Translations under genes and position numbers: made by a program
Assembly (NCBI GenBank): GCA_029834535.1
Contig: JAQMWT010000351.1
Span: 186,001-250,000, forward strand
Direction of reading: 5' to 3'
Length of the DNA stretch: 64,000 nucleotides
Source: Chrysophaeum taylorii
Taxonomy: Eukaryota; Sar; Pelagophyceae; Pelagomonadales; Pelagomonadaceae
Notes under the pieces: generated by a model
What the model was told of the DNA's origin: nothing
What the model saw: only the letters and a program-made list of their open reading frames with translations
Databases searched by the model: none
Shown: positions 27,561 to 49,384 of the stretch, piece by piece
Numbering within the stretch: position 1 is the first letter of the stretch
Layout: the number at the start of each line of letters is the position of its first letter

Positions 27561-28299
27561 ATCCAAAACTTCACAGGCGCACGCTTTTTCCGGTGTTGTG
27601 GAGCGTTCTCATCGCGCAACCGCTGATATTACTCGCACTCTTTCGGTACATGCGCACAGTCCACCTGATTTTCGGCGTTGGGCCATGGAAACGGCTGACT
27701 TCATCTCTGAGCGTATGCCAAATGCCTCTAATCCTGGATATATGACGCCATATGAAGTGCTACATGAAACTCTCCCACGCGTCGATTTTCTTCGTGTTTG
27801 GGTCTGTCCTGCTGCAATTCTTACTGGCGACAAATGGCCTACCAAAGCTATAACCGGCATCTTCATTGGGTGTCCCTCTGCAGGCCCTGGATATCGCATA
27901 TTGCTTCAACGCCCCACAGATCCTGTCATCCACACCTCGATTGATGTTGTTTTTGACGAAAATTTCGCTCTGCGTAAGTCACTGTCCTCTCAACCCCTTC
28001 CTCCGTCTCTAGTGCATTCTCGTTTTCCTGACTTATTTTATTACGACCCTCGTTAATCTTCCGCCGTGGCCCCCATGTCTTCTGTTTTTGATGCTCCGGA
28101 GCCGGCCTTATCGGGACTGATCACCCCTGAAACAACTCAACCGTCACTGAATACACTGTCACCGGACAATACGAAACGTGCACCATTACATCGCGCTAGA
28201 CGGGGCCGACCGCGCAAAGTCGAACAACACCAACGCGCGTTACAACAACCAACAAACTTTTTTTACGGGCGATTCTGTTTCCTCCTGTCACGATGTTGA
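27561..28299 (+). pseudogene. Copia B integrase C-terminal remnant and linker
   Basis: The segment starts with the end of the integrase (VERSHRATADITRTL, holding the catalytic Glu region) and runs through RRWAMETADFISERMP and DVVFDENFALRK. It has a stop at 28054-28056 and a frame change into the linker. The block with both catalytic aspartates is missing, an estimated 0.4 kb deletion relative to copy D. Confidence 0.82.
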
Positions 28300-28349
28300 T
28301 TCTGTTTCCTCTGTCGCTTCTGTTTCCTCCTGTAACTCTTTGTATGTCT

Positions 28350-28423
28350 TTAAATGTCGACTGCTAAGAGGGGGGTGTGTGTGGGGAGCATGAAGGATGT
28401 GGGTGGGTTTGTGGGGTATCTCA
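28350..28423 (+). repeat. 71 bp short interspersed repeat inserted in copia B
   Basis: Compared with other copies, extra sequence lies between two copies of TTGTATGTCT (28340-28349 and 28424-28433). The insert is nearly identical to that at 518-588. Confidence 0.75.
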
Positions 28424-30150
28424 TTGTATGTCTCTTCTGTTAGCTTTCGTTTGATAGTTCATTATGTCTTCCTTCCCCTTTGTTTAGCTAACACCCTTGT
28501 TGATCCCCATGCACACGTTTATTACTCTGCTTCCGAAGAAATGTCTCAGTATTCAGACCTTGACGAAACTACTATTACTTCCACCCACTTACGTGAAGCT
28601 TTAGCTCCGACCAATCCTGAGCGTCCTGGCTGGTTGCAAGCCATCGCTAAAGAATACAGCTCTCTTGGTCAGCTTGGTTGCTGGGATGTGGTTCGCCTTC
28701 CTTCGACTTTTTCTGGCAACATTTGTACCCTCAAGTGGATCCTCCGCAAGAAGTATGACTCTGGCCGCTTCAAATCGTACAAGGCTCGCCTCGTCGTCCG
28801 CGGTTACACCCAGGTTCACGGCATTGATTATCATGACACCTACTCACCGGTTGCCAACATCGTCACTTTCTAACCTTTGTCGCTGTTCATGACTGGGATT
28901 TGCACAAGTTGGATGTCAGCTCCGCTTTTATTCAAGCTCCCATTGACGAAGACATCTATGTCTGGCCACCCGAAGGCTATGCTCCTCGCCAGCCCACCGA
29001 TGGTTCCAAAATCGTTTACAAGCTCCGTCGCTCTTGGTATGGTTGCAAACAAGCTTGTCGCAATTGGTGGCTTTATTTGGAACGCTTCCTTCTCAATGAT
29101 TGTGGCTTCGTCCGCGGATCTGGTGACACTTGCCACTACAAGCTCGTGCTCAATTCTACCGTCGTGCTACGTCTCGTTTTGGTCGTTGATGATCTTCTTG
29201 TGGCGCACCCTCGTCATTGCATTGGCCATTACCAAGCCTTTTTCCTCCGTTTCCGCGCTTTCACTGACGTCAATGAATTTGATCTCACCTCTTACGTTGG
29301 TCTTCGCATTACGCGTGATCGCCCTAGGAGAACCCTCACTCTTGACCAATCCCATGCTATCCGTGAAATCCTTACCGAACATCGCTTCATCAACAGTAAA
29401 CCCGAACTCACTCCCGCTCCCAAAGGTCTTCATCTTTCTGCGGCTGATTGTCCTACTCCTGGTTCTCCTGATCTCATTTTCATGGCACGCATCCCTTTTC
29501 GCCGTATTGTTGGCTGTGTCCTCTTCATCTCCATCATGACTCGCCCTGATATCACTTGGTCCGTCAATCAGTGTGCGCGTTCTTCCCACAATCCTGGTAA
29601 ACCCCACTGGCACGCTTTATCCCACACTGTGCGTTATCTCAACGGTTCTCAGGATCTTGCCCCTATTCTTGGTCGCGATTCTACCCTTCGTCTCTATGGT
29701 TATTCCGACTCCAGCTGGGCCGACGACCCTGATGACCGCCACTCTACAACTGGTTTTTGTTTTCTCCTTGCTGGCTCTATGATTGCCTACTGCTCCCGCT
29801 CGCAATACTTACTTGCTCGCTCTTCTTTTGAAGCTGAATTGCTCGCTCTTTACGCTGCTACTGCTGAGCTCTCTTGGCTTCTCAAACTTTTTGATGACTT
29901 TGATCTCCCTCGTCACACGGTCCCAATGTATGTTGATAATAGCACCACCGTCACCCAAGTCCGTCTCCAATGTCTCACACGGCGCACCCGCCATATTGAC
30001 ATTCGCTTTTACAGTACCGCCGAATATCATCGCAACCACATCATTGATCTCAAACACATACCCCGCCTTCACAATCTTAGCGACATTTTCACCCGCAGTA
30101 CGGAAGCTCCTTCCTTCCTCCGGCTTCGTGCTCTTTACCTCACTTCGTGA
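28397..30150 (+). pseudogene. Copia B reverse transcriptase and RNase H
   Basis: The RT begins in the 28397-28873 frame (HLREALAPTNPERPGW, KARLVVRGYTQ, DYHDTYSPVANIV). About 10 bases are missing at 28865-28875, where copies A and C encode TIRFFLTF, so the frame breaks there. The 416-codon frame 28900-30150 carries the rest: KLDVSSAFIQAPIDED, VVDD active site, the connection region missing from copy C, and RNase H with GYSDSSWADDPDDRHSTTGF and SSFEAELLALY, ending at TEAPSFLRLRALYLTS. A single small deletion disables an otherwise well-kept RT. Confidence 0.88.
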
Positions 30151-30327
30151 TCTTCGCCCTGATCTCTGTTGTTTTTCTTTCTTGCCACAATGCCTCTATG
30201 ACATCTTCCTCAAAGCTTCTCCTCTGTGAGCGTCTCACTTACCCCTTTTTCCTTTTCTTTCTTTTTCCAGCACCTGTGTAAGGACCACACTTATCCCTTT
30301 TTCCTTTTCTTTCTTATCCAGCACCTG

Positions 30328-30423
30328 TGTGCGGAAGCTATGACACTTACCCCTGCACCATGTATCCAGTATCCATACGTCTTTCTCTTATCGCTAGTCT
30401 AACGCCTCATTCCATTCGTAACA
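30328..30423 (+). repeat. 3' LTR of copia B
   Basis: 96 bp, starts TGTGCGGAAGC and ends CGTAACA. Confidence 0.93.
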
Positions 30424-30555
30424 TGAAGTGGTGGCTTTTAAAAACTGCCAATATACTGCCGAATAGCCGTCTATTCGATTATGAGATCTTGAAGTGAGAA
30501 AGATCGAGCTTTTAAAACCCTTGAGCATCATCTAAAGCTTGCACGATCAAAAAGC
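30424..30555 (+). promoter_or_regulatory. Remaining upstream region of the FCP gene
   Basis: Only 132 bp separate the copia B LTR from the FCP start codon. Two TTTTAAAA motifs occur, at about 30437 and 30513; the second lies about 40 bp before the ATG and is a candidate AT-rich core element. Assignment is by position only. Confidence 0.3.
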
Positions 30556-31167
30556 ATGTTCTCCAAGGTCGTCGTCGCGCTCTGTCTCACCTCGGCTGCT
30601 GCCTTCGCGCCCGTGGCCTCCCACGCAGCCCCCAAGACCGTCGTCAAGGCCTTCGAAACCGAGCTCGGCGTCCAGCCTCCGCTTGGCTTCTTTGACCCTC
30701 TCGGCCTCCTCGCGGATGCCGACCAGGAGAAATTCGAGCGCCTCCGTTACGTCGAGATCAAGCACGGCCGCATCTCGATGCTTGCCGTCCTCGGCCAGAT
30801 CGTGACCAAGGCGGGGATCTTCCTCCCGGGCACCATCGACTACTCGGGCACCAAGTTCTCCGACGTCCCGACGGGCTTTGGTGCCTTCTCCGCGATCCAA
30901 CCGGCAGGCATCGCCCAGATCGTCGCCTTCGTCGGCTTCCTCGAGCTCTTCGTGATGAAGGACTCGGCCAACGGCGCCGCTCCCGGCGAGTTCCCTGGCG
31001 ACTTCCGCAACGGCGCGCTGGACTTTGGGTGGGACTCGTTCTCGGCCGAGGAGAAGCTGAGCAAACGTGCGATCGAGCTCAACAACGGCCGCGCTGCCAT
31101 GATGGGCATCCTCGCGCTCATGGTCCACGAGGAGCTCGGTGTTTCCCTCTGGCCGGGCGGCATCTAA
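30556..31167 (+). CDS. Fucoxanthin chlorophyll a/c-binding protein (light-harvesting antenna)
   Basis: The 203-residue product is a three-helix LHC protein of the FCP type. It binds chlorophylls a and c plus fucoxanthin in the thylakoid and passes energy to the photosystems. The N-terminus MFSKVVVALCLTSAAAFAP is a signal peptide ending in the A-FAP cleavage motif, the start of the bipartite targeting signal used with secondary red plastids. Helix 1 (about 58-87) has the chlorophyll-ligand motif EIKHGR (67-72). Helix 2 lies at about 115-135. Helix 3 has ELNNGR (174-179) and continues to about 195. Length, motif spacing and the short C-terminus fit the family. No intron interrupts it. High GC3 and a clean frame contrast with the neighbouring transposons. 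Copia B inserted 132 bp upstream. Confidence 0.95.
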   Translation: MFSKVVVALCLTSAAAFAPVASHAAPKTVVKAFETELGVQPPLGFFDPLGLLADADQEKFERLRYVEIKHGRISMLAVLGQIVTKAGIFLPGTIDYSGTKFSDVPTGFGAFSAIQPAGIAQIVAFVGFLELFVMKDSANGAAPGEFPGDFRNGALDFGWDSFSAEEKLSKRAIELNNGRAAMMGILALMVHEELGVSLWPGGI

Positions 31168-34017: not shown

Positions 34018-34159
34018 TCCTGTTCGCTCATCACATCGTTGTAAAATGCACGAGGCGGGGGTCCGAGCGTCGAGCGGAAAGGAGAAAAGGAATGAGTGGA
34101 AGGAAGGACGTGGACGCAAGCCGCTAAGAGGGGTGTTGGGGGCTTGGGGGTTTTGGTGC

Positions 34160-34473
34160 TGTGGCGTAAGGAGAATTTAGGGGCTTCCTGGCGTGCCTTC
34201 GAATCCTGGCTCGCCGCTCGCGTCCGTGCCCTTGGTGGAGTCACTGGACGAGGATGGCCGTTCTCCCGCCACACAACCACTAACAACTTCCGTGCCTGGT
34301 CCTCACAACTTGAGGATCGGCTGTTGCTTTATGATTAAGAACACTTGAATCACAGAAATCAGGGAAGATGATGTCATAGAGAAAACTGACATCATCAGAA
34401 CGGAGTAGGGTGCCCGTGATAAGGGGGGCCCTAGAAGAGGGGTAAGCCTTAGGAGGCGGGAGTTGCCGCCACA
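34160..34473 (-). repeat. 3' LTR of the gypsy element
   Basis: 314 bp, TGTGGCG to CGCCACA; nearly identical to 44056-44369. Confidence 0.95.
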
Positions 34474-34513
34474 GAACTCCCCTGGTAAGAATTCGAGCTG
34501 CCTCAGCGAGGTG

Positions 34514-35587
34514 CTAGCGCGAGGAGCGCGGCTTCGCCTTACGAGCATCTCGTGAACGAATCTTCTGGTAAACGCGGGTGATGACCGGTTCAGGAACTCG
34601 GCCACTGCGCAAAGTAAACTTGGGGATCAACACATCATTCTCGTGCGGATCGAAATCCGTGACACAAGGAGTTGTGTTGGAGGAAATTCTGGACTTGTTG
34701 GTGAAACTTCGACCTTCAACGTCCTTGAACTCGGGCTTGAGTTTGCGGTGCGAAAGGTGAGAGGTCGGCTTGAAATAAGCCACATCATCGTTCGGACCCA
34801 AATCGGAATAGAAATGTAGAGCAACACGATCATTTTGGTAATCGTAAGGCTCACAAACTTCAGCAACATAAATCTTCTTGCGCCAATCAGAGCGCTTCCG
34901 GTCAGGAATCCGGAAAACAACAAACTTACCGTGCTGATAATCATCACGGAAGGTTTCTTCGGGTTTGCGGATGGCTTCATCAACGATCGGAGGTACCATC
35001 ACAGGCGTGATTTGACTAACATGAACACGTCGTTCTTCGGGCGGAGAGTCGAGAGACTCAATCCTATAGGTGACCGGGGAAAGGCGTTCCTTGATAATAA
35101 ACGGGCCGCGCCATTCCGGTCGAAGTTTGTTCTGGAGGAAAGGAATGTAGAGCAAAACGTGCGATCCTTCCTTGTATTCAACATCAACATGATCGGCATT
35201 GTAGGCCAATCGTTGTTTCTTCAAAGCTTTATCACGAGCCTCGCGGACGATCTTCGTATAATACTTCAATCGTTCACGAGTTTCGGCGACTGCATCAGAG
35301 CGAGTCTTCGGCAACAATCGCGTATCAAAGTCCATAAGCGTGTAGTCAGTAGGTAACATCGGCTGACGGTTCAGGCGCAGCATAAAGGGAGAAATCTGCG
35401 TGCCTGGAATAAACTTGCGGTTATAACAAAGCGCAATATAATGAGCAAAGTCAGGCCAATCCGTGATGTTCCGGCCCTGAAGGCAAGCACGGAGGAAGGC
35501 CTTGATAAATCGGTTTACACGCTCAGCCGGGTTCGACTGGGCATGATAAGGAATCGTAGTTTGGTATCGTGTGTTAAGAGATGGCAA
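34514..35587 (-). pseudogene. Gypsy integrase C-terminal part with long tail
   Basis: This 357-codon frame starts SLNTRYQTTIPYHAQSNPAE, which holds the third catalytic acid (Glu in NPAERVNR), then a GPY/F module (LRPEWRGPFIIKERLSPVTY). About 200 further residues extend beyond it. Within them KFVVFRIPDRKRSDWRKKIY and VAEVCEPYDY resemble a small beta-barrel (SH3 or chromo-like) fold, but I cannot assign it. The frame ends 40 bases before the 3' LTR. Confidence 0.85.
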
Positions 35588-36933
35588 AACTCGCGCATCA
35601 ACTTGTTCACGAACTCTTTACCGTTGTCGGTACGAATCATCTGGGGCAAGTAGCCCTTGAGGAGAATGTTAATGACAAAAGACTCGAGGACAGACTCAGC
35701 AGTCTTATCGTTCAAAACATCCAGAATCAAGAAATGCGAGAACGGATCAAAAAATACTAGAAGATACGTCTCGGGACCAGCGCTGGGCAAGGGTCCAAAT
35801 AAATCCATGCAAAGAACAGCACCATCACCATCGTAGACGGGCTGCTGCAAGAGTCCAGCTCGTTTCGGCTCAGGCGTACGAGCTTTCTGGCAAACTAAAC
35901 ATTCAGCAATGAAGACTCCAACTTCGTTCGACATGTGAGGCCACCAAAATCGTTCTTGGATAGCCTGGACGGTACTGTGACGTCCCATATGACCACCGTT
36001 AACCGGAGTGTCATGGTAGAGTCGAATAATGCGCTTGCGCAACGTAGCAGGTGCAACAATCATCGGGTGCAAATCAGCAGAAATGCGGTAAAGAACGTCT
36101 TTAACGACTTCGAATCGTTCGTTCGCTCGGGAACGTCGCGGCGTCTGACCTTGGGCCATTCGGTAGCGAATATCCTCGCAAGTAGCATCAGATTCTTGCT
36201 CACGTGCGATCTCAGCGAGCGTCATATTATCGGGTATCTTATCGATATAATCTTTGTAAGCGGCTGCGTCCTTGAAGATCTGTGGCTCATCGCGCGCACG
36301 GTTCTTCCGACGTTGTCTCGTAGCGTGAGACGTAGCCAATTTCATCGGATCCTTTTCAGGATCTTCTTCCTCGTCTTCCGGCAGTTCGGTCGTAATAAAC
36401 GACATTATGAAGTGGCAGCCGGAGGCGGGAACTCCTCGGTCATCAACGGGTCGGGGAAGCTCTTGGAACACCAAATAAGCGTGGTTCAATGGTTCTCCAA
36501 ACTCGTCAGTCTCGATGACGTGATCTATCGGATTGCGGGAGAGACAGTCAGGGATACTCATTCCCGGTGACTTTCCCGGCTTGTAACCAAGTTCAGGGTC
36601 AAAATTGGCGAGGCGCATCGCCCAACGAGCAAGCTGCCCAGACGAGTGCGTCGCCTTACGTAAAAACGTCAAATTTCGGTGATCGGTCTCCAAAACAGTA
36701 CGGTGCCCTTCGATGTAGGCTCGAAAGTGCTCTAGAGAAAGTATAACTGCCAGCAGCTCTAACCGACGGGGCTCATAATTGCGCATCTCCTTCGGCACAG
36801 CTCGGCTCCAATATTCAATCACTCGTTCTTCTCGAGTCACTCTTCCGGCATCGTCCTTGACTTCGACAATCTGGAAGAGATATGCTCCAAGTCCATCCTT
36901 GGAAGCATCGGATCGGATCTGAAATGGCAGATC
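35515..36933 (-). pseudogene. Gypsy RNase H and integrase N-terminal and core
   Basis: This continues the RT frame: DLPFQIRSDASKDGLGAYLF starts RNase H, and LETDHRNLTFLRK is its conserved DHxNL segment. After a linker the integrase zinc site follows (H...H in YHDTPVNGGHMGRH, C-x2-C in ECLVCQ). The catalytic aspartates are in LCMDLFGPLP and MIRTDNGKEF. The frame is lost just after HLL, about 35 codons past the second Asp, and the homologous sequence resumes in another frame at about 35587. Confidence 0.87.
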
Positions 36934-38262
36934 TTAATCGGGATGGTAGACACCACGGGAATCAACCAAAGCTTCAATAATCGTATCCCAAGCTTTCTGA
37001 CACTCGGGCGTCCACTCGAACTTTACACCTTCGAGGCATAATCGTCTCAGCGGTTCCACGATCTTCGAGTAGCCCTTCACATATCGCCGGCAGTAATTAC
37101 TCATGCCGATGAAAGAGCGTATCTGGGTCTTCGGGGAAGTATTCGGTAAAGTACCTGGAATCGGCATCTTCTGCAGTGCTTCCAGCGTCTTCGGATTCGG
37201 CTTAAAGCCGTCTGGGGTAGAAATGTGTCCCATAAATTCTATATCATCCTTGAGAAGGTGGAACTTCGCGGTTCGACCGCTGTACCCTCTCTGTGCCAAA
37301 TGACACATCACTTCGATCAAAACTTGTAAATGTCGATGAAGATCGTCGGATCCCATCATAATATCGTCAACAAACGCAACCAAGTCTCGATACATCCATT
37401 TCGAAAGGTCGCTCGCCATTTGCTTGCAGAAAAGAGCTCCGGCCGTCTTCACACCTAGAGGTAATCGCAAGAAACTATGAGCGCCAAGTGGGCTAACCAT
37501 CGTGACAGCGTCTTGCGCTGCCGGATCCAGACGAAGGTTGTGGTATCCCCATCTAATATCAATGCATGTCCGCCATCGTCGCATAGCGAGAAAAGCTAAA
37601 GCATCATCTTGTCGAATGTTCGGCCAACTGTCATTGACCAATTGATCGTTGAGCTGACGTAAGTCAACTGCAGCACGGAACGCGTTTGACGTTCCAATCT
37701 CAGCTCCTTTCTTCGGAAGCATCAACACAGGAAAGCCCCAAGGTGAGTTGGCCGGACGAATGACTCCATCCCGGCACCACTCGCTGATCTGCTTACGGAG
37801 ACAATCGAGCTTCGCAGGCGTCAATCGGTAGGGCGTCATCTTAATCGGTCGCGGATTCGCGTCTTTGAATCGTAGAGACACAGGAGGTGAGTCCACAGGC
37901 CTCATAATCGGGTCGAAAAAGGCCCAAGAATACTGCACACAGTGACGGAGCATCCGTTTCGCCTCGTCATCTCAGTGCGGATTGTCAGGAATTCCTAACT
38001 CCTGAACAATCCTATCGACTTCTTCCTTCGTAGGAATTTGAACTTTCATGGCTTCGTTGTCCTTGACATGCTCGGGAGTTTGCGGCAGCGGTGCACCCTC
38101 AGCATCGCGCGGCGCATCTTTCCATGGCACATCAAACTTCTTCTCATATTTTAGTCTCACTTCCGGGTGGCTTTTGTTGATCCTCTCGCCTTTGACACGA
38201 ACACTCGGCTCGCTCTTAATCTTCGGTTCCCGATCTCGCTCAGGATCTGGCGGAACGTCCAA
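36934..38262 (-). pseudogene. Gypsy reverse transcriptase
   Basis: The frame begins near 38262 overlapping the end of the methyltransferase frame, runs 96 codons (LDVPPDPERDREPKIKSEPS) to a TGA at 37974-37972, and continues in the same frame to a TAA at 36936-36934. In the 339-codon part the RT motifs are complete: GFPVLMLPKKG (73-83), AAVDLRQLN (94-102), DIRWGYHNLRL (132-142), LPLGVKTAGALFC (164-176) and active site FVDD (194-197). Thumb sequence IGMSNYCRRYVKGYSKI follows. Two nonsense codons make the pol non-functional unless read through. Confidence 0.88.
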
Positions 38263-39962
38263 ATTTGGTTGTCGGGGGCAGCAAAAGAAGCATGAGACGT
38301 CCCCGGCTCATCTGTTGCAGGCGGAATCAACGGTACCTCTGGAGGTTTCCATTTGGTGCGATCTTGGAGATCATCAGTCGACACCCATCTTACGACACGT
38401 GTGCGCGTGTTTAACAGCGGAACTTGTACGTGACGAAGGGTGGTTTCATCAATTTGCAAATAATAATCAAACGGTCGGTCTGCAGGACTCAACGCTGACG
38501 GCAAAGCTTCGCCGCTCAGGTGAAAATCCTTGGTCACAGAGTTGTGCAGATCGAGTACTAATAAGGTCATCGTGTCTGGTGGCACGACGGACGCCAAGTG
38601 TTTCAACGAGGTCGTCCTGGAGAAGCCGGCCCAATCAAAATCAAGGGGCATCGTCAGCAACTCCGAAGTCATTTTCAGATTCAGAGATCTGTAATCGGAA
38701 CGGTGCGGTCCTACGCGAAGCGGGACACGCGTAACGGTATAAGCTGCGTCTGTCGCGGCTCGTGATGATCCTAAATTGTTCATCTGAAGTAAATGTCGTT
38801 CGTCGGCGTAGCCAAGCGCAGCGGCGAACTCTTGTTGCATATTCTTGCAAGTCTTTGGAACTGCGCGCAAATGGAGCGGATGGCTGGAAACCAACAATCG
38901 CACGCGACAGCTCATCAAACTGGGCGTTATGTCGTAAAAATTGACGACGTACACGTAAGGGTGCAAACGTGCAACGTAAGAAATAATCGAGGCCTCCTGC
39001 TCTATCAACCACATGAAGAAACCAGCCATCTTGCATAATTTCATCGTCCAGTGGGTAGCGGTGACTCCCTTGCCAACATCTCTGGAAGTCAAGTTGCACA
39101 GAGCGGAGTGTACGCAGGGTGGCGACGCGACACACATCGACGACGACCATTCCGCGTAGGGTAAATAAGATTCGATCAACCGTAAGGTTGTAACATAGCG
39201 ACCACACAGTGTGTGCTGCACCACAGGAATGTTCGGAAAATTCTTATGGTGGATTTGGTTGGCGGTGTCCGACGCATCGAGTGCTAGCACGACTCGAAAC
39301 GACGTCCCACAGAATTCGTTGGCTCTTTGGAGACCTAAAGTACTGCCTCCGGCTCCACTGAACAACATCACCACCTTGCGATAAGTGATTGGAAGCCATT
39401 GAACCTTTTCGTATCGGCGGCGGATCTCCGCTTCGGTGATCTCGCGGCACTTCTTTTCGTCTTCTTCCGGCCTTCGAGCGAAATCGTCGCTGCCTTCGGG
39501 TCGTTTGAGGGTGGACTTGTCCCCCATAGCGGTCGTAGCGTCCTTCTGCGCCGTGCTCAACAACATCGGCGGGGGAGACGCGTCGCAATGCGTCAAATGA
39601 CTAGCGACGGAAACGGTGAAAGAAAGGTTCCCCTTGTCGTATCCTTCTTCACATTCTTTCGTAAGTTCGTTGATCGTAGAGACGTTCAACTCATCTTCGT
39701 ACCTAACGATATCGCCAATCGCAAGGACTTCGCCTTGAGTGACGACCGTCGGCACTTCTTCCGCGGCAGTAACCGCAACCCGAGCAGCGGACCGGTCGTG
39801 CTCTTCGCAAGAAGAACACATTCCTTCGACAACTCCCAACTGCTCGTTCTCAGCAAACGTAGCGACGAAAACCTGTCCCATTTCCATAGGTTTCGACAAA
39901 ATAACCGGTAGATTGTAAGTTCGACCGGGTTCGATTTGAAGCGTGCGCGCAGCGTAAGCCAC
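38157..39962 (-). CDS. C5 cytosine DNA methyltransferase encoded within the gypsy element
   Basis: This 601-codon frame lies between protease and RT. Residues about 195-460 carry the ordered motifs of cytosine-5 DNA methyltransferases, which transfer methyl from SAM to C5 of cytosine through a Cys adduct. Motif I is VVMLFSGAGGSTLGLQRA (197-214, SAM binding). Motif II is LALDAS (226-231), followed by NFPN (241-244). Motif IV is ASPPC (279-283) with Cys283 as nucleophile. A motif VIII-like segment SCRVRLLVSS is at 351-360. A target-recognition-like segment follows, then RSLNLKMTSELLTMPLDFDW (425-444), like motif IX. ENV (motif VI) is not canonical: WLIEQEAS near 318-325. The first codon is GTG, the first in-frame ATG being at residue 26. 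The frame is -1 to the protease, so frameshifting or a separate message is likely. Confidence 0.82.
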   Translation of the reverse strand: MAYAARTLQIEPGRTYNLPVILSKPMEMGQVFVATFAENEQLGVVEGMCSSCEEHDRSAARVAVTAAEEVPTVVTQGEVLAIGDIVRYEDELNVSTINELTKECEEGYDKGNLSFTVSVASHLTHCDASPPPMLLSTAQKDATTAMGDKSTLKRPEGSDDFARRPEEDEKKCREITEAEIRRRYEKVQWLPITYRKVVMLFSGAGGSTLGLQRANEFCGTSFRVVLALDASDTANQIHHKNFPNIPVVQHTLCGRYVTTLRLIESYLPYAEWSSSMCVASPPCVHSALCNLTSRDVGKGVTATHWTMKLCKMAGFFMWLIEQEASIISYVARLHPYVYVVNFYDITPSLMSCRVRLLVSSHPLHLRAVPKTCKNMQQEFAAALGYADERHLLQMNNLGSSRAATDAAYTVTRVPLRVGPHRSDYRSLNLKMTSELLTMPLDFDWAGFSRTTSLKHLASVVPPDTMTLLVLDLHNSVTKDFHLSGEALPSALSPADRPFDYYLQIDETTLRHVQVPLLNTRTRVVRWVSTDDLQDRTKWKPPEVPLIPPATDEPGTSHASFAAPDNQIWTFRQILSEIGNRRLRASRVFVSKARGSTKATRK

Positions 39963-41059
39963 TACTCCTCGCGCGTCTTCTCCCGGAGCTGGGAGAATTT
40001 GTTCGTAGCATGTCCCCGCGTAGCCAAGGCTACCGTACGTTCCGGCGGCGGGCTTCGGAGATCTTTAATCGTGCTCAAACGAGCGTAAACTCGAGTCTTG
40101 ACCAGGTCGAGACTCTTCCGAAAGGCATCGTGTTGTTGATTGTAAATCGGTACGGTTATCGGATCTCGATCGTAAATAGATCGAAAGGCCACGATTGGTG
40201 CATCGATTCGTCCATCCTTGAACTTAATCTTCTTGCGCCCGTAGACGACTTGGGTTCGATAAAAACATATTCGATCGTGGGGGTAGTCCACGACGGCTCC
40301 TAAAACTCGTATATCGCGCCCTCCCAACAGGAACAGATAGTTCGTATCGGCCACAATAGCGACAATGGGGGCAGCGATGTTGTCGGCGAGGGCGACCCGA
40401 ATCGCGATCCAACGAAAGATCGTCGTCGTATTCAACCCTGATCCGTACAGCTTGCGCTTAATCGGAAGTTCGCCTTCATCGAAAATCAGCTGATCTTTGG
40501 CCAACTTTCTGACCATTTCTCGGCAAATATAAGAAACATCTGCCATTCCATCGACACCGATGGTCGTCGAGAATTTCGGTCCGTCACGATTCCTGTAGAT
40601 GTGACAGGCCATAAACGTAAGAGTACCCGTATCTAAACAACTGAGGGTAACCAAATCATCTTCGATCGTCTTGCCATCTCGCGGCGTCAACGAAGTGTGA
40701 GCACATCGGGCTCTGACTCGCTCGTCTCCGGGGTTGGGCATCGATACCGCGGCTTGAGCTTTCGTATCATTCGTTGTTGGCGTCATCGACATAACGCTCG
40801 CGGCAGCCTCTTTATCTGGCGGCTTCCGCTCTTCCTCCAAGACAATCTCGGAGGGAATCAACGCTGGTAGGGGATCCTGGTCTTCATAGTTCTTGGAAGC
40901 AAAGGACCCCTCCCATAAATCATTCATTTCGTCTTTCCAGAATGCATCTGTAAATTCATTCGTCATCGGTTGATCATCACCATCATCGGCGATCGGTTCC
41001 GTGTCGGCTGCAGCTTCGAGTACGTAGCTGAGCGGTTGTTCTGGTAGCTTCTTAAGCAA
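39962..41059 (-). CDS. Aspartic protease region of the gypsy element
   Basis: This 365-residue frame has a disordered acidic first half. Residues about 165-265 look like a retroviral aspartyl protease: STTIGVDGMADVSYICREMV holds the position of the catalytic loop, and LLGGRDIRVLGAVVDYPHDR matches the I-L-G-x-D-x-L ... V-D-Y flap and C-terminal strand. The usual D-T/S-G-A loop reads D-G-M-A here (Asp170 kept, TG replaced by GM), which is odd and could reduce activity. The stop codon overlaps the start of the methyltransferase frame, one base back. Confidence 0.65.
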   Translation of the reverse strand: MLKKLPEQPLSYVLEAAADTEPIADDGDDQPMTNEFTDAFWKDEMNDLWEGSFASKNYEDQDPLPALIPSEIVLEEERKPPDKEAAASVMSMTPTTNDTKAQAAVSMPNPGDERVRARCAHTSLTPRDGKTIEDDLVTLSCLDTGTLTFMACHIYRNRDGPKFSTTIGVDGMADVSYICREMVRKLAKDQLIFDEGELPIKRKLYGSGLNTTTIFRWIAIRVALADNIAAPIVAIVADTNYLFLLGGRDIRVLGAVVDYPHDRICFYRTQVVYGRKKIKFKDGRIDAPIVAFRSIYDRDPITVPIYNQQHDAFRKSLDLVKTRVYARLSTIKDLRSPPPERTVALATRGHATNKFSQLREKTREE

Positions 41060-41121
41060 GAAGTTCCGAGTTCTCGTCCACCAATCCTGCAGGTTCCACG
41101 TCGGCTCGTCTTCGTCCCAAT

Positions 41122-43590
41122 TCAGAACGCTGCTAATCTTTTTCTTAAATCTATCCTTTTTTTTTCTGGCGGCGTGTCCATGGCTCGATCCGTCGTGACC
41201 GAAACCGTTTCGGGGGGGTCCGCAGGAAAAGATGGCGTCGTCCCCGACGTCAACTCTATCGTAAGCTCGTCGTCTGCATTACTCGCGCTGGTCATCGTCT
41301 CGTTCGTCGAATGATCACACGAGCTATCACTGCAGAAATCCATGTCTGGCTCACAGCCAGTTTGGTCGCCAAAGGTCGTCTCTGGAAGGTCCAAAGATAA
41401 GCCGATAGCGTCGAGGGCTTCCTCGTCAAAAACAAACGGTGCGTCGTCCGTGGACGACTCGTCAAGTAGCGTAATCGCGGACACTGGTTCACAAGGTGTA
41501 GCTTCTTCTTCTTCCGAGTCTGAATCGCCTTCCCAGTATCGTGGAGCTTCGAGGTCATCGCTCGAATCTTCGAGTTCATCGCTCAACATCTCCTCATAAA
41601 TCTGTGCTAAAGACCGACGATTGGTCAGCACGTCGTTGGGTGGCTCGTCCATCGGCGGGCGAGCAAGATCTTCGAATGCGGCCGCGGCAAGGGCGTCGGC
41701 TGCGTCGTCGGGGCGGGTGTCCGTGTTCGGGTACACCATCACTCCTAATGGTAACTGTTGACCGCAAGGGGTCGTAAACGCGAGCGTTGCGCTCGAAAAA
41801 CCCAAATTATATTGGTGTCGGCCTCCGTCGTATTCGTCGTCGTGCGATCGGCGTCGTCTGTGCCGGCGCGAACTTCGACTTGGGCTCTTGTTATCTTTGT
41901 CTCTCTCTGGCGTCAGTTCGGCAGGTCCTAGTACCTCTGGATCGTCCCTGTAGGCGACTGGCGCTCCCAAGCCTATCCGAACTGTCTCAATCTTCTCGTC
42001 TATTGGAACATCGACAAATGCGTCGTCTTCTTGACAAAACTCCGACCAAACGTAAATTAACTCTCCGTTGGCGAATAAATCCATGCCTCGGGGTCGGAAT
42101 TGCACTTCTTTCCGCTCTGGCGGTTTCTTCCTCAGGAAACAGTGAGCTCGTATCCATATCGTCGGTACGCTCATCTTCCTCTTATCCATGCTGATCGTCC
42201 CATCCAAATTCGATTCCGGGCGGCAGCTATACTCATCCCTCATGGTATGTTCGGGATCTTTCTTTATCACATAGCCATCATCATATGCAGGCTGAAAATC
42301 TTTGAACTCTTCGTTCGTGAGTAATACGCCAGGGCTTTCACTGAGCTCCAAAGGCAGTTCATGCGTTATAAGATTCTTCGCCTCTTCCGCTTCCGTATTC
42401 ATTTTCTCGGCCGTTTCACTCGGCCTATCATCCACTCCATCGCTTAGAATATCGGCAATCGCCTCGTCACTAAAAGTGTCGGCACACGAAATGTCTGCCA
42501 TCATCAAAGGGAATAAAACATCTGCAAAAACGTCGGCAGTCGGTTCGTCGGGAGGCCCTGCAAAAGAAGAAGGCGTCGTCCCCGACGTCATATCTTTCAA
42601 GAAATGGCCACCAAGGGGCACGTGACGTTCGATGGGCGTGTAAACAGGTGCGCGCTTATCATTCGAGATAGTCATCTGCGACGCATCGTCGATCGATCGT
42701 GGAGACGAAGTGTCATCCACTTGAATGTCCGGAGGTAGACTCATAGCATCGAGCGTAGCAGCGGCGGGCCCGTTCCTTTGGGCGTCATCGGCTGCACGGG
42801 GCTCGTGAATCGGATTCACACATAACTCCGGCGCGTCGTCGAAACCGAGGGTTGTGTCAGCTGACGACAAACCATATCGTGCCACCAACGGTGACACCGG
42901 GTCAGAAGCCGTTGTCGGCTTCGGCCCGTAGTTTAACGACGTTTCTGTCAGGTTCTCCGATTCTGTGGGGATTTTGGTTTGGGTGAGCTCCTTCGACTTA
43001 GATTGCTCTTGCTCGTAGTTTAACGACGTTTCGGTCATCTCGGACGACTCGTCGTCGTCGTCGCGCGGCTTCCTAACTTTCGCTCGCGTTCGAGTGGGCG
43101 GCGGTACCTCCGAGGGTCGGAATTCTCCCTCAAGACTGCTCGCTCGCCTCGAGCGACTTGGCGTGCGCAATTCATCCTTCTCGCGGGTCAACCATCGTAC
43201 TTGCTCGTGTATTTTATCTAATCGAGCGTGTTCGTGCCGCATTTGCTCTTGCATTATTCTTATCTTCTTCTGGTGTAGCCATTCACACCGCATCTCTTCT
43301 TCTATCAGCTGGATGAGGATTTCTTGTGCGCGCTTATTTTCTCGGCGTATCTCGCGTAAATGGGCTTTGTAAAGCTTTGACAACGGTTCATCATCTCGCG
43401 CACGTTCTGGATAGGCTGCCGGTTGTCTCGCCGGCGGCGCCCTCGGCAGTTCATCGCCGTTGTAGTTCAGTTCTTCTTCCTCATCATCATAATCAGTATC
43501 ATCATCATCGTCCCCCTCGCTCGTCTCATCCTGGCGGCTTGGCGGTTCGTCATATCGCGTCTGCTCGACGGCAGCATCATCGTCTTCCAT
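41122..43590 (-). CDS. Gag-like acidic coiled-coil protein of the gypsy element
   Basis: This 822-residue open frame starts MEDDDAAVEQTRYDEPPS and is strongly acidic (EGDDDDDTDYDDEEEE). Residues about 70-150 form a charged heptad-like coiled coil (LREIRRENKRAQEILIQLIE, then HARLDKIHEQVRWL). Later parts contain the repeated phrases ETSLNY (twice) and TSGTTPS (twice). No CCHC zinc knuckle or major homology region is visible, so it is called gag by position and assembly-like coiled coil only. Its length is large for a gypsy gag, and the acidic character is unusual for an RNA-packaging protein. It may hold extra domains that I do not recognise. Confidence 0.6.
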   Translation of the reverse strand: MEDDDAAVEQTRYDEPPSRQDETSEGDDDDDTDYDDEEEELNYNGDELPRAPPARQPAAYPERARDDEPLSKLYKAHLREIRRENKRAQEILIQLIEEEMRCEWLHQKKIRIMQEQMRHEHARLDKIHEQVRWLTREKDELRTPSRSRRASSLEGEFRPSEVPPPTRTRAKVRKPRDDDDESSEMTETSLNYEQEQSKSKELTQTKIPTESENLTETSLNYGPKPTTASDPVSPLVARYGLSSADTTLGFDDAPELCVNPIHEPRAADDAQRNGPAAATLDAMSLPPDIQVDDTSSPRSIDDASQMTISNDKRAPVYTPIERHVPLGGHFLKDMTSGTTPSSFAGPPDEPTADVFADVLFPLMMADISCADTFSDEAIADILSDGVDDRPSETAEKMNTEAEEAKNLITHELPLELSESPGVLLTNEEFKDFQPAYDDGYVIKKDPEHTMRDEYSCRPESNLDGTISMDKRKMSVPTIWIRAHCFLRKKPPERKEVQFRPRGMDLFANGELIYVWSEFCQEDDAFVDVPIDEKIETVRIGLGAPVAYRDDPEVLGPAELTPERDKDNKSPSRSSRRHRRRRSHDDEYDGGRHQYNLGFSSATLAFTTPCGQQLPLGVMVYPNTDTRPDDAADALAAAAFEDLARPPMDEPPNDVLTNRRSLAQIYEEMLSDELEDSSDDLEAPRYWEGDSDSEEEEATPCEPVSAITLLDESSTDDAPFVFDEEALDAIGLSLDLPETTFGDQTGCEPDMDFCSDSSCDHSTNETMTSASNADDELTIELTSGTTPSFPADPPETVSVTTDRAMDTPPEKKRIDLRKRLAAF

Positions 43591-43683
43591 ATCGGCTCTG
43601 GCTCGTTCTAGTCGGCCGAGATCAGAGCGAGTCCAAAATGGTTGAGTCGTCGTCGTTCTCGTGCTCCTTCGACACTGGGACTT

Positions 43684-44004
43684 CTACTCGTCCACGACAC
43701 GCGTAATATCGTCGTTGCGTGCGTCTTCCACCGACAAATCTATCAGTCCGGTGGGCGGCAGAATTCGTCTCTGCCCGGCAATCAATGCCTTATCAGTGAG
43801 TTGCGATCTCACTCCGCTCGCCTGCGGCAGCGGTACCCGGGTTGCGCGTCGGCTAGCACCGAATCGCGCGTCGTCACTTCCGACGACTAACGTATCCGGC
43901 CGGGGGACTTTCCCACGGCAGTGGTCCTTCTGGAATTCCTTGTCGGCGCGCTTGATCAGGGCGCGCACGGCTTGTCCGGACCGTGTAGAGAATGCAAGAT
44001 GCAC
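43684..44004 (-). CDS. Leader open reading frame of the gypsy element
   Basis: A 106-codon frame starts MHLAFSTRSGQAVRALIKRA, 51 bases inside the 5' LTR, and is basic with no known domain. It stops before the gag-like frame. It could be a true N-terminal gag piece separated by a stop, or a chance frame. Confidence 0.35.
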   Translation of the reverse strand: MHLAFSTRSGQAVRALIKRADKEFQKDHCRGKVPRPDTLVVGSDDARFGASRRATRVPLPQASGVRSQLTDKALIAGQRRILPPTGLIDLSVEDARNDDITRVVDE

Positions 44005-44029
44005 TCGTTCGCTGCGACCGATATAGTCG

Positions 44030-44055
44030 CTCGAATCTCGTATTCCTCCACCACC
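44030..44055 (-). other. Candidate primer-binding site of the gypsy element
   Basis: In minus sense the sequence starting two bases inside the 5' LTR reads TGGTGGAGGAATACGAG and continues into TTCGAGC. The TGG start fits a tRNA CCA end, and TTCGAGC resembles the complement of a T-loop, but the tRNA cannot be named from this. Confidence 0.4.
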
Positions 44056-44369
44056 TGTGGCGTAAGGAGAAGTTAGGGGCTACCTGGCGTGCCTTCGAAT
44101 CCTGGCTCGCCGCTCGCGTCCGTGCCCTTGGTGGAGTCACTAGACGAGGATGGCCGTTCTCCCGCCACACAACCACAAACAACTTCCGTGCCTGGTCCTC
44201 ACAACTTGAGGATCGGCTGTTGCTTTATGATTAAGAACACTTGAATCACAGAAATCAGGGAAGATGATGTCATATAGAAAACTGACATCATCAGAACGGA
44301 GTAGGGTGCCCGTGATAAGGGGGGCCCTAGAAGAGGGGTAAGCCTTAGGAGGCGGGAGTTGCCGCCACA
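44056..44369 (-). repeat. 5' LTR of the gypsy element
   Basis: 314 bp partner of 34160-34473. About five substitutions were seen by eye. Confidence 0.95.
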
Positions 44370-44656
44370 AGTGCGTTGACAACGCCGTTGTGTGTGGGGG
44401 TATGAGGGATGCCTGCCTGGAAGGCTGATGTGGGTATACTCAGGTTGTTGTTGTCACCCTCATCGAGCAGCCAAATCTCAGAGGCCTCCGCCCTCTCTTT
44501 ACCACTAATCCCCAATGCCTCTCGGCAAGCATCCTTTAGGCGAGTTCGGCGGCGCGAACAACCACCACCGCGATGTTCTGTCCTTCGCCGCGACCATCGA
44601 AGAACACCAGGGCTCTATCGAAGAAGAACAGCAGAACCGGAAAAACGGCTCTCTCT
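44370..44656. other. Short flank between gypsy 5' LTR and EF-hand gene
   Basis: This is the presumed 3' untranslated region of the EF-hand gene. It carries no motif I recognise. Confidence 0.4.
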
Positions 44657-46480: not shown

Positions 46481-46631
46481 ACATGATCCTTACTCTCGCG
46501 CCTACCTGATCCTTACCCTAAATCGAGGGACAAACAGACAAACAGACAAAGAGACAAACAGACAAACATCTGTCGATTAGTAGTTAGGATTTTTTTTTTT
46601 GGGGGTCGTCGTCGTCGTCACAATGACTTAG
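46481..46631. other. Short spacer with GACAAACA repeat
   Basis: GACAAACA-type units lie at 46528-46568, followed by ATCTGTCGATTAGTAGTTA, which also occurs at 56509. The same layout upstream of two Helitron remnants suggests it is part of the element. Confidence 0.5.
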
Positions 46632-46727
46632 TGTGAGGAAGCTATGACACTTACCCCTGCACCACGTATCTAGTTTCCCTACGTCATTCCCTTATCGCGA
46701 GTCTAACGCCCCATTCCAGTTGTAACA
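46632..46727 (+). repeat. 5' LTR of copia D
   Basis: 96 bp, TGTGAGGAAGC to TTGTAACA. Confidence 0.92.
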
Positions 46728-46736
46728 TGGTAGCAG
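46728..46736 (+). other. Primer-binding site of copia D
   Basis: TGGTAGCAG directly after the LTR. Confidence 0.7.
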
Positions 46737-46838
46737 GTGCAGCGTTCGTTCGTTCCGATCGAACCTGTGCTTGACTTCGTGGCGACTCCTCCTCGGCTTC
46801 AGTTCATTGCTACGTGTTCGGTTCGTTATCGTCTAACA

Positions 46839-47563
46839 TGTCCTCGATCGAAATTAAAGATAGCAAGCTTTCGCAAAAACAAACTTGATGCCTTCAGTGG
46901 TGAGCGACATCTTTTTCATCAATGGACCCGGCGCCTGGAAAACATGATCATTTCCACCGGTGATCGCATTATCTTGACCAATGACACTTGGACTAGCATT
47001 TCCGCCTCTGGCTGCTCTGAAGAAGAATCTGGTGTTAAGCAGCAACATTGGTACTCTGCACTGTTCATGGCGCTACCAATGCATGATACTGATCGTGCGG
47101 ATATCCGTGAAAACCGCGATATGGACTTCACGCGGCTTTACAAGCGCATTACCGACATTTACATGGGCCATGGAGATCGTGTCGCTCAGTCTGCAATTGC
47201 TTCCTTGCATTCCTTGGTATGCAACAATATCGATGAACTTGAGTCTTTTCTCAACAAGTTCATCACTGGTGTTCAAGTTGCTCGGCATCATCAAGATTTC
47301 CCTGACACTCTTGCATTGCAATTGCTTCAGACGAAAATCCGCGACTCGATCTTGTCTAAGGATCTCATTGCACTTGACCCTAAACTGCGCACATATGATG
47401 GTTTCGTTGATCGCCTCAGCAGTAAGGTTTTCGATTATCTTCAGAGACCAGGTCTGCGCTTGTCCATGCTACGTTCCGTGAAAGTCCCCGCCATCGTGAA
47501 CGTTGCAGCTTTTGCGGTCGTACCAACCATCCTTCTGATAAATGCCTTCATCGCCTCAATGCT
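46839..47563 (+). pseudogene. Copia D gag N-terminal region
   Basis: The start MSSIEIKDSKLSQK is present at 46839, but a 4-base insertion (extra CAAA near 46880) shifts the frame. The rest of the gag core (LDAFSGERHLFHQWTRRLEN to KVFDYLQ) is open in the 46737-48266 frame, which then leaves frame near 47450. Confidence 0.85.
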
Positions 47564-49384
47564 TTGCGCTCCCAACAACGTTCTACATCTTTTCGCCCAT
47601 CTTTCCGTAACCGACCTTCGTCTTCATTTTCCCGTGGTTTCCATCGCAAGCGCCCACGCCCTACTGACCTTTGTCACTTTTGTGGTATTCCTGGCCATCA
47701 CCAGAAAGATTGTCGTAAGCGCCAGCGCTATTTGCTCTCACAAGCCACCGCCCGCCCTCGCCCTCGGCCTCAATTCCCACCTCGGTCCAATCCCCGATAC
47801 CCACCTCGGTCCAATCCCCAATACCCACCTCGGCTCCATCCACCATTCTACCAAAACTATCTTTCCGCCCCCATCCCACTCTTGCCTCCATCTCAACCCT
47901 CTCCGCCGCTTCTTGCTTTGCCACCCTCCACCACACCCCCTGTCCCGCCTTCCACTGCCATCTCCCCTCCGGACCCATCTCTTTCTGCACCCACCTACCC
48001 GTCTTTCAATTACCATCTTCTTTCTATATCCCCCTCCATTCATCAAGTTCTTTCCTCCACCAATGCTCTTACCGCTCCGCTCACCGCTCCTGAGCGCGAC
48101 TACCTGCACAGCAACAACCTTCGCCTCGTCGTCTACGATACCGGCGCAAACGTCAATCTCTTCAATTCTTCAGCTGGTTTCACTGACCTTGACAATACTC
48201 AGCAGCACTCCATCACTTCTGCACTCGGCACTGGCTCTGTTTCTGGTTCCGGCACTGCTCACTTAACGTTTCCTTCAATTGGTCCTCTCGACAATCGTGG
48301 TCTTCCTTCTCCTCCACCTACTCTTTCCGCCCCTCATGGTATCCATGTCGCGTTCCCGCATACCCTCATTTCTCCTGGCCTTGGTGACAAACGGGTTCTT
48401 TCGGATCATGCCCTTGAGCAAGTTGGTTATGATTGCCACACAATTCAGGCTGTTGGCCCTGCTCATCCGCAACGCATTTTACGTCACCGCCAAACGCATC
48501 ACGTTATTCCCCTGCTTCGTCGCTGTGGTCTTCTTTTGATCGTCTGTTGGATCGGCAATACGACCGCTGCGCCCAACGCGGACTTCGTTTCACCTTTTGT
48601 GGCATTTTCTCCTTGCCCTCGCGTCCATGACTCTTGTGCGTTTTCCGCTGTGTCTCAACGCACTCACCTTACCTTCGACCTTTGGCATGCTCGTCTTGGT
48701 CACTACAGTCCCTCTTATATCCGACGTTTGTCTTCTCTCGCTGTTGGCGCACCGCTTTTCCCGAGCTCCGCGTCTCTTTCTTTTTGTCCTGCTTGTGCTC
48801 TATGTAAAATGCATGCTGCGCATGTTGGCCAACGTAAAGCACATGCTTCCACTTCCACTTCGCTTCCTGCCTCCGAGCCTTTGTCTCGTCCACGTGCCGT
48901 TGCGCCCTACCTTATTATCCACGCCGATCTCATGTTTGCAGGCGCCCCATCCTTCATTTATCAAGACCGAGCGGTCCTCGCGTTTGTCGATGATCATACG
49001 CGCCGCCGCACACGTTACTTTGCTCCACGACGCGACGCACTTACGAACGCTCGTCAACTCGAACTTTTTCTGTCTACCGTGGTTCGCCCATTTGGATATC
49101 GCATTGCCCTCATCTACACCGATCGTGACCGCTCTCTTAAGGGCCCATTCGAAACCTTCTGTCTGGGCAACAACATCGCTCTCAAACGTGCTCCTGCAGC
49201 TCAGTCCAAAACTTCACAGGCGCACGCTTTTTCTGGTGTTGTGGAACGCTCTCATCGCGCTGATATTACTCGCACTCTTTTGGCGCATGCGCACCGTCCA
49301 CCTGATTTTTGGCGTTGGGCCATGGAAACGGCTGACTTCATCTTTGAGCGCATGCCAAACGCGCCTCTAACCCTGGATATATGA
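47564..49384 (+). CDS. Copia D gag zinc knuckle - protease - integrase
   Basis: This 606-codon open frame carries a CCHC zinc knuckle (CHFCGIPGHHQKDC, 37-50), a Pro-rich linker (60-150) and the aspartic protease DTGA loop at 192-195. The integrase zinc residues are WHARLGH (374-380) and CPAC (408-411). All three integrase catalytic acids are present: Asp454 (IHADL), Asp520 (YTDRD) and Glu561 (GVVERSHR), so protease and integrase look functional. The frame ends at TLDI just as the next frame (49381) starts, a small shift relative to the family sequence. Gag N-terminal codons lie in another frame. Confidence 0.88.
   Translation: MRSQQRSTSFRPSFRNRPSSSFSRGFHRKRPRPTDLCHFCGIPGHHQKDCRKRQRYLLSQATARPRPRPQFPPRSNPRYPPRSNPQYPPRLHPPFYQNYLSAPIPLLPPSQPSPPLLALPPSTTPPVPPSTAISPPDPSLSAPTYPSFNYHLLSISPSIHQVLSSTNALTAPLTAPERDYLHSNNLRLVVYDTGANVNLFNSSAGFTDLDNTQQHSITSALGTGSVSGSGTAHLTFPSIGPLDNRGLPSPPPTLSAPHGIHVAFPHTLISPGLGDKRVLSDHALEQVGYDCHTIQAVGPAHPQRILRHRQTHHVIPLLRRCGLLLIVCWIGNTTAAPNADFVSPFVAFSPCPRVHDSCAFSAVSQRTHLTFDLWHARLGHYSPSYIRRLSSLAVGAPLFPSSASLSFCPACALCKMHAAHVGQRKAHASTSTSLPASEPLSRPRAVAPYLIIHADLMFAGAPSFIYQDRAVLAFVDDHTRRRTRYFAPRRDALTNARQLELFLSTVVRPFGYRIALIYTDRDRSLKGPFETFCLGNNIALKRAPAAQSKTSQAHAFSGVVERSHRADITRTLLAHAHRPPDFWRWAMETADFIFERMPNAPLTLDI

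Follow-up and report, generated by a model that had tools for sequence, protein, structure and literature searches.

A methyltransferase domain in the pol region of a Ty3/gypsy element

The window analysed here, a stretch of 64,000 nucleotides from contig JAQMWT010000351.1 (positions 186,001 to 250,000), carries on its minus strand a Ty3/gypsy long terminal repeat (LTR) retrotransposon at positions 34159–44369, whose pol region contains an open frame with similarity to C5 cytosine methyltransferases (Table 1). As proposed in a previous reading made from the letters of the window alone (the sequence-only reading), this frame lies between matching LTRs, each 315 bases long and identical to one another at 310 of 315 positions, and is bordered by a protease-like frame on one side and by the reverse transcriptase (RT) domain RVT_1 on the other. 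The 601 codons to which that reading had assigned the methyltransferase are present at 38157–39962 of the minus strand, but their GTG start is arbitrary and the open frame comprises 635 codons. The Pfam domains of pol follow one another as RVT_1, RT_RNaseH, Integrase_H2C2, rve, and Integrase_p58_C, which is the gypsy order.

The protease, methyltransferase, and RT parts of the window copy occupy three separate frames, with frame shifts at both borders of the methyltransferase domain and again inside the integrase. The two nonsense codons noted previously in pol were both found; the one at 36934–36936 splits RT from RNase H, whereas the one at 35515–35517 seems to lie beyond a frame change, because the integrase runs on in a different frame, open from position 35617. 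Owing to the frame changes at the domain borders and in the integrase, and to the stop between RT and RNase H, the window copy is regarded as a damaged element. In two other copies a single open frame (3,063 and 3,067 codons, respectively) holds the methyltransferase, RT, and RNase H, and the methyltransferase domain therefore is probably part of the pol polyprotein in the natural product.

Table 1. Features of the Ty3/gypsy element in the window, from its 5' to its 3' end.
Feature	Position	Strand	Remarks
5' LTR	44055–44369	−	Found as repeat; starts TGTGGCGG, ends CGCCACA; last base (44055) falls beyond the TG...CA ends
Primer binding site	44031–44053	−	Follows the 5' LTR; complementary to a tRNA-like 3' end (TCGAATCTCGTATTCCTCCACCA)
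gag-like frame, 853 codons	41125–43683	−	Presumed gag, named by its position; no Pfam match
Protease-like frame, 438 codons	39965–41278	−	Presumed protease, from a VDGMAD...FLLGGRDIRVLGA pattern seen by eye; no Pfam match
Methyltransferase-containing open frame, 635 codons	38160–40064	−	601-codon version: see text
Methyltransferase core, residues 186–482 of the open frame	38517–39407	−	Matched by PF00145, PHROGs, and our own C5 methyltransferase profile
Motif I, FSGAGG, residues 201–206	39345–39362	−	Putative S-adenosylmethionine (AdoMet) binding, by analogy
Motif IV, PPC, residues 281–283	39114–39122	−	Candidate catalytic Cys283
Reverse transcriptase, RVT_1	36934–37953	−	PF00078, 48.2 bits
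RNase H and integrase	35515–36933	−	Pfam: RT_RNaseH, H2C2, rve
Integrase, C-terminal part	34514–35617	−	Integrase_p58_C; different frame in the window copy
3' LTR	34159–34473	−	Last base (34159) falls beyond the TG...CA ends
Probable target-site duplication	44370–44374 (left), 34155–34159 (right)	−	GCACT (left), GCACC (right); 4 of 5 bases match

Relationship of the domain to C5 methyltransferases

As the sequence-only reading had anticipated, the open frame of the window is recognised by a C5 methyltransferase profile: it matched PF00145 with 24.2 bits, above the curated cut-off of 22 bits, and all ten copies that were searched as cores exceeded this cut-off too (22.8–27.4 bits; core of the window copy 27.0 bits, E = 3.9e-6). 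The matches covered positions 2–52 of the 324 profile positions in nine of these copies and 3–71 in the tenth. Searches against PHROGs gave E-values of about 1e-6 to 1e-7 overall (core of the window copy: phrog_116, 9.9e-7; phrog_363, 2.1e-6), and TIGR00675 (dcm) was matched at E of about 1e-3, far below its cut-off. A further profile was built from 38 bacterial and phage sequences (with two genes included twice) and the DNMT2-like and DNMT5-like proteins of the host, omitting one more locus that had no usable frame. It matched all 13 gypsy copies over motifs I–III (E = 5.5e-10 to 1.2e-7 in a 13-sequence search). Judged by these profile matches, homology to C5 methyltransferases is statistically firm for motifs I–III only, and the confident alignment spans only about 50 residues. 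Known profiles matching so short a stretch is what chance motifs, with no relationship to C5 methyltransferases, might also produce, but Pfam, PHROGs, and our own profile all match one and the same block, and the PPC of motif IV follows in the correct order and is nearly invariant, which renders this explanation very improbable.

Conservation of the individual motifs was assessed in 41 copies, a sample that is not random, as 30 of them are the best-scoring matches of the 601-residue query. Motif I (FxGxGG) reads FSGAGG, with Gly203 present in all 41 copies and Gly205 and Gly206 in 40, and the cysteine of motif IV is kept in 40 copies, the exception being the interrupted copy L045. The residues RVR at 353–355, a candidate for the QxRxR of motif VIII, are conserved in 40, 40, and 41 of the 41 copies; the sub-profile of motifs VI–VIII matches elsewhere. 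A forced global hhalign alignment against our own profile (probability 93.8, E = 2.8e-8) placed motifs IV and IX–X correctly. Motifs IX and X took the correct place in the MAFFT alignment as well and were modelled with a mean predicted local distance difference test score (pLDDT) of 69–85, and they are not significant alone. The motif set listed in the sequence-only reading thus holds for motifs I–III, which are significant, and for the PPC, whereas RVRLLVSS (VIII) and the segment resembling motif IX, neither of which is significant by itself, are plausible assignments. That reading listed no motif VI. Overall, the comparisons support the view that this gypsy element carries a domain derived from a C5 methyltransferase. 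Its host is recognised as a photosynthetic eukaryote because a gene of the chlorophyll a/b-binding family (PF00504, E = 6.3e-39) lies at 30556–31167, about 3 kb from the element. Activity of the domain stays unproven because motifs VI and VIII lack a confident assignment.

Copy number and selective constraint

The genome searched comprises 70.8 Mb in 697 contigs. Using the 601-residue query, at least 76 places were found (73 of 1482 candidates scored), and a 30-base DNA pattern of motif I with up to three mismatches occurred at 173 places, compared with none for the reversed control. The 19-nt core of the primer binding site was present at 99 places (reversed control, 0). Two old subfamilies, A and B, with cores about 82% identical to each other, both carry the methyltransferase domain. 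A subfamily B core used as query matched at least 133 places (133 of 1010 candidates scored), 67 of them with at least 84% and 66 with 80–83% identity by hand count. Matches in the contig pairs C10/C297 and C25/C521 stand at near-equal offsets with the same identities, which suggests duplicated haplotypes, and such contigs may inflate the copy counts somewhat. Protease-like sequence adjoins the domain in all 30 subfamily A loci and RT does so in 28 of them; among subfamily B, RT lies beside the domain in each of the four copies whose adjoining stretch was retrieved. The possibility that many RT copies are devoid of the domain was rejected: the domain is present at both such places that were retrieved, in one case starting only at residue 161, and the mismatch between the lists of RT and domain places comes at least partly from the number of candidates scored.

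Selection was estimated by comparing 13 copies of subfamily A with each of four copies of subfamily B, using the proportions of nonsynonymous (pN) and synonymous (pS) differences and the ratio of the corresponding substitution rates (dN/dS). The core had a pN of 0.090–0.108, a pS of 0.689–0.702, and a dN/dS of 0.047–0.058, compared with a dN/dS of 0.019–0.051 for RT, 0.094–0.122 for the protease-like frame (available for three of the four subfamily B copies), 0.123–0.155 for the region before the core, and 0.24–0.28 for the region after it; as dS is near saturation between the subfamilies, all these ratios are rough. When the same bases were read in shifted frames, dN/dS rose to 1.6 and 5.5. 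Within subfamily A, ratios of means were 0.20 (core), 0.32 (RT; 0.43 with a looser filter), and 0.48 (protease). According to these substitution patterns, purifying selection on the domain is similar in strength to that on RT. The selection that the sequence-only reading had suggested from the lack of stop codons in the frame is supported by the dN/dS of about 0.05 between copies rather than by one stop-free copy, as 5 of the 41 copies have a stop within the core; the ratios among the genome copies lie below 1, the check that it had proposed. A passenger role of the domain without selection, its conservation reflecting merely the young age of the copies, would agree with the near-identity of some of them; it is hardly credible in view of the near-saturated synonymous sites between the subfamilies, the low dN/dS of the core, and the ratios above 1 in the wrong frames.

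Constraint is unevenly distributed along the frame. Among stretches of 20 codons, pN was lowest at residues 281–300 containing motif IV (0.009), and residues 321–340 (0.022) and motif I (0.043) were the next most constrained; residues 301–320 and 341–360 had values of 0.062 and 0.066, respectively. This profile favours a putative catalytic role of residues 281–360. For one copy, whose protein identity was 95% in RT and 74% in the domain, a swap of the domain between the subfamilies was considered and ruled out, because synonymous divergence is equal in RT and domain (pS 0.69 vs 0.70).

Possible function of the gypsy domain

Roughly even odds (about 0.5) are given to the interpretation that the gypsy pol holds a C5 cytosine methyltransferase, captured long ago and strongly diverged, that works during replication of the element. 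The domain would then be a working AdoMet-dependent enzyme acting on nucleic acid. Since it sits beside RT in one polyprotein, complementary DNA (cDNA) of the element would be the simplest and most likely substrate, methylated either in the particle or at integration. A new copy would arrive already marked, and the DNMT5-like, maintenance-type enzyme of the host could copy the mark onward, or the mark could be read as “self.”

Several results, concerning the domain itself as well as the CpG content of the DNA, weigh against this interpretation. Beyond motifs I–III, no significant match was obtained when pieces of the profile were compared with 2000 shuffles. The fraction of shuffles scoring at least as high as the window copy was 0.059 for motifs IV–VI, 0.021 for VI–VIII, and 0.050 for IV–VIII, and 0.041 of the shuffles equalled a subfamily B copy with the VI–VIII sub-profile; the IX–X sub-profile had no match in the window copy, and its match in the subfamily B copy was equalled by 0.33 of the shuffles. 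No assignment is possible for the catalytic ENV of motif VI, whose candidate differs by method: EQE with Glu321 in a MAFFT alignment with few rows, VSS in one with more bacterial rows, and VNF by eye. An early reading according to which motif VI is certainly lost was dropped, three placements being possible. In the subfamily A loci L035 and L038 (2 of 30) no RT was found within 1.5 kb downstream of the domain, the protease-like part being present. AlphaFold2 applied to the gypsy-family rows alone gave a mean pLDDT of only 31.8. When bacterial methyltransferase rows and the DNMT2-like protein were added, the model spoke in favour of the interpretation and reached a predicted template modelling (TM) score of 0.65 and a mean pLDDT of 56.9 (ten-residue means of 71–94 at core residues 11–90 and 69–85 at 241–290, with most of the core middle below 50), but its fold was steered by the supplied rows.

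CpG dinucleotides are not depleted in the element, with an observed/expected ratio of 1.30 vs 1.10 and 1.15 on its two sides within the window; the ratio was 0.72 in the LTR alone and 1.03 and 1.00 in two copia stretches. The ratio of CpG to non-CpG transitions in subfamily A was 1.06 for the methyltransferase, 1.17 for RT, and 0.85 for the protease, and it was 1.20 in subfamily B and 1.29 over all sites of the methyltransferase domain of the copia family described below. At third positions it was 1.02 in the gypsy and copia families alike. This pattern gives no indication that the coding parts were heavily and lastingly methylated at CpG with the usual deamination. Methylation by the element of its own or rival copies, as envisaged in the sequence-only reading, is hypothetical, and CpG transitions are hardly raised (0.85–1.20 in the gypsy family). 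The footprint would be compatible with cDNA methylation that is transient, with other sequence contexts or efficient repair, with methylation of the LTRs alone, or with an RNA substrate.

Little CpG footprint would also be expected if methyl transfer had been lost and the domain were kept as an AdoMet- or nucleic acid-binding part of pol that serves as a cofactor of the particle, RT, or integration. Other catalytically dead methyltransferase domains exist, and the lack of confident recognition of motifs VI and VIII and the little room for a target-recognition domain fit such a role. However, motif I and the PPC cysteine, which would be needless in a dead enzyme, are among the most conserved residues, and the highly constrained residues 321–360 could hold diverged versions of motifs VI and VIII. 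Loss of activity is thus a possible, though not a probable, explanation.

An RNA cytosine methyltransferase that modifies the primer tRNA or the RNA of the element would likewise leave little footprint in DNA. DNMT2 methylates tRNA, the primer site of the element is tRNA-like, and the first sequence matches of the domain in the PDB were DNMT2, at non-significant E-values of 0.16–0.19. DNMT2 also heads the fold matches of the seeded model, among which C5 methyltransferases account for all 50 listed rows (TM-scores by query length 0.22–0.48 among the matches listed) and a DNMT3A2/3B3 structure ranks 37th of the 50. With the family profile, however, DNMT2 drops to E-values of 0.62–0.66, behind an unrelated GGA1 fragment (0.39). 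Moreover, a DNMT2-like row was part of the alignment behind the fold model. An RNA substrate is therefore considered unlikely.

A second methyltransferase-carrying family and the methyltransferases of the host

The genome contains a Ty1/copia family that carries a C5 methyltransferase between protease and integrase (loci L003–L008, L048, L052, L053, and L066–L071). Its motif IV pattern was found at 143 genome places (controls, 1 and 1). In one frame of 1,952 codons, PF00145 matched residues 349–475 with 32.1 bits and RVT_2 matched residues 1686–1933 with 133.2 bits, and by eye only, a protease-like DGGAS motif was made out, as well as an integrase-like stretch between the PF00145 and RVT_2 matches. 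PCQ is present in all eight aligned rows and ENV in seven, the remaining row having ENA, and our own profile matched the eight copies with E-values of 2.1e-16 to 1.9e-13. With PCQ and ENV in place, the copia enzyme appears clearer as a methyltransferase than the gypsy one. Its dN/dS was about 0.13 over motifs I–VIII (14 loci, 76 pairs kept, L066 being the same place as L052). In the frame of L052, the stretch separating the methyltransferase from the integrase, several hundred residues long (about 480–900), had no Pfam match. An hhalign comparison of the gypsy and copia methyltransferases yielded nothing (probability 0.5%); the two are not detectably close, and a recent common origin of these cargoes therefore is not supported.

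Searching the genome with PF00145 revealed at least 57 places (123 of 474 candidates scored), one of which is DNMT2-like and one DNMT5-like. According to a hand comparison, 52 of the remaining 55 overlap places of the copia family, and three lie outside the listed places (100 of the 143 were listed). The DNMT2-like gene (L001, contig C634) matched PDB entry 1g55 (E = 3.9e-39), and the DNMT5-like gene (L002, contig C621) matched 7r76_A with 482 bits, a chain labelled Rad8 that we take to be the DNMT5 of Cryptococcus. Among the candidates scored in this search, none was recognised as DNMT1- or DNMT3-like, three places being untraced. Both host genes encode C5 methyltransferases like the gypsy domain, but each occurs at one place and has a full motif set, whereas the gypsy domain is multicopy. 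Identity to the gypsy domain in the alignments was 15% for the DNMT5-like and 20–21% for the DNMT2-like protein. As the only DNA methyltransferase seen in the host is of the maintenance-type, DNMT5-like kind, the gypsy and copia captures might together supply its de novo methylation, a scenario that we consider quite improbable.

Comparison with known retrotransposon-borne methyltransferases

DNA methyltransferases (DNMTs) carried by dinoflagellate long interspersed nuclear elements (LINE) and DIRS elements and by a charophyte gypsy element were reported in 2018 (PMC5890265; this and the following publications are cited from excerpts of their text). In KnitGypsy-Dnmt3 of Klebsormidium nitens, a DNMT3 is part of the gypsy pol polyprotein and occurs in several copies with Ka/Ks < 0.2 (PMC5890265). 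The element described here is similar in that it belongs to Ty3/gypsy, has a cytosine methyltransferase domain that is probably part of its pol polyprotein, exists in multiple copies, and shows purifying selection. Unlike KnitGypsy-Dnmt3, a DNMT3 with its key residues kept, the enzyme found here is too diverged to be classed and its motif VI is unclear, and the host has a DNMT5-like gene, no DNMT3 among the candidates scored, and a copia methyltransferase family in addition. High copy number, old subfamilies, and purifying selection like that of RT are features shared with SymbioDIRS-Dnmt3 and SymbioLINE-Dnmt of Symbiodinium (PMC5890265), but SymbioDIRS has a tyrosine recombinase and SymbioLINE is a LINE, whereas the element in the window has an rve and H2C2 integrase. 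Two SymbioDIRS enzymes methylate CG de novo in yeast, the result for the gypsy enzyme of that study being inconclusive, and de Mendoza et al. (2018) argue for cDNA as substrate in the case of the DIRS elements (PMC5890265).

The copia elements of Symbiodinium are described in the excerpt of the same report as lacking any DNMT domain (PMC5890265), and a survey from 2025, with reference to de Mendoza et al. (2018), speaks of DNMT3 in copia-type LTR elements and in DIRS, and also of lineage-specific orphan DNMTs (PMC12344493). The cases in the excerpt of that survey are from streptophytes and dinoflagellates, and the host type considered here is not named in it (PMC12344493). Stramenopile retrotransposon DNMTs are not mentioned in the excerpt of a survey of diatoms and SAR (PMC9998398). 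Among titles and beginnings of abstracts in the open-licence literature, none was found to describe a methyltransferase in gypsy or copia elements of an alga of the DNMT5 type. The gypsy case is likely separate from the dinoflagellate and charophyte cases, in line with the sequence-only reading. Retrotransposon-borne DNMTs as such are known; what is new is the diverged gypsy enzyme, and that gypsy and copia carriers occur together in one genome. With these findings, the range of retrotransposon-borne cytosine methyltransferases comes to include a photosynthetic host that has a DNMT5-like gene, and a copia element, with two families side by side. It becomes testable why elements keep a methyltransferase, be it for marking cDNA, RNA, or the insertion site. 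The DNMT5 of Cryptococcus is a maintenance enzyme without de novo activity, and the preferences of DNMT5 elsewhere are stated as undetermined in the excerpts (PMC9246332, PMC10538959). Provided that the captured enzymes are active, a host that combines a DNMT5 of the maintenance type with high-copy elements bearing methyltransferases would offer a natural setting for asking where new methylation originates. The gypsy enzyme, diverged yet constrained, would further allow testing how far the active site of a C5 methyltransferase can drift.

Wider relatives and genomic surroundings

No relative was found in viral contigs (queries A1, consisting of the gypsy-family rows, A2, and the DNMT2-like gene) or in bacterial and archaeal genomes (query A3), scans that reach close relatives only. 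Phages were scanned with the DNMT2-like gene only, to obtain reference enzymes. Within the window, two related copia-type stretches flank the gypsy element at 28033–30425 and 46631–50302. The frames tested there had no methyltransferase match and contained RVT_2 and gag_pre-integrs, and the repeat pieces of the two stretches are 89–93% identical.

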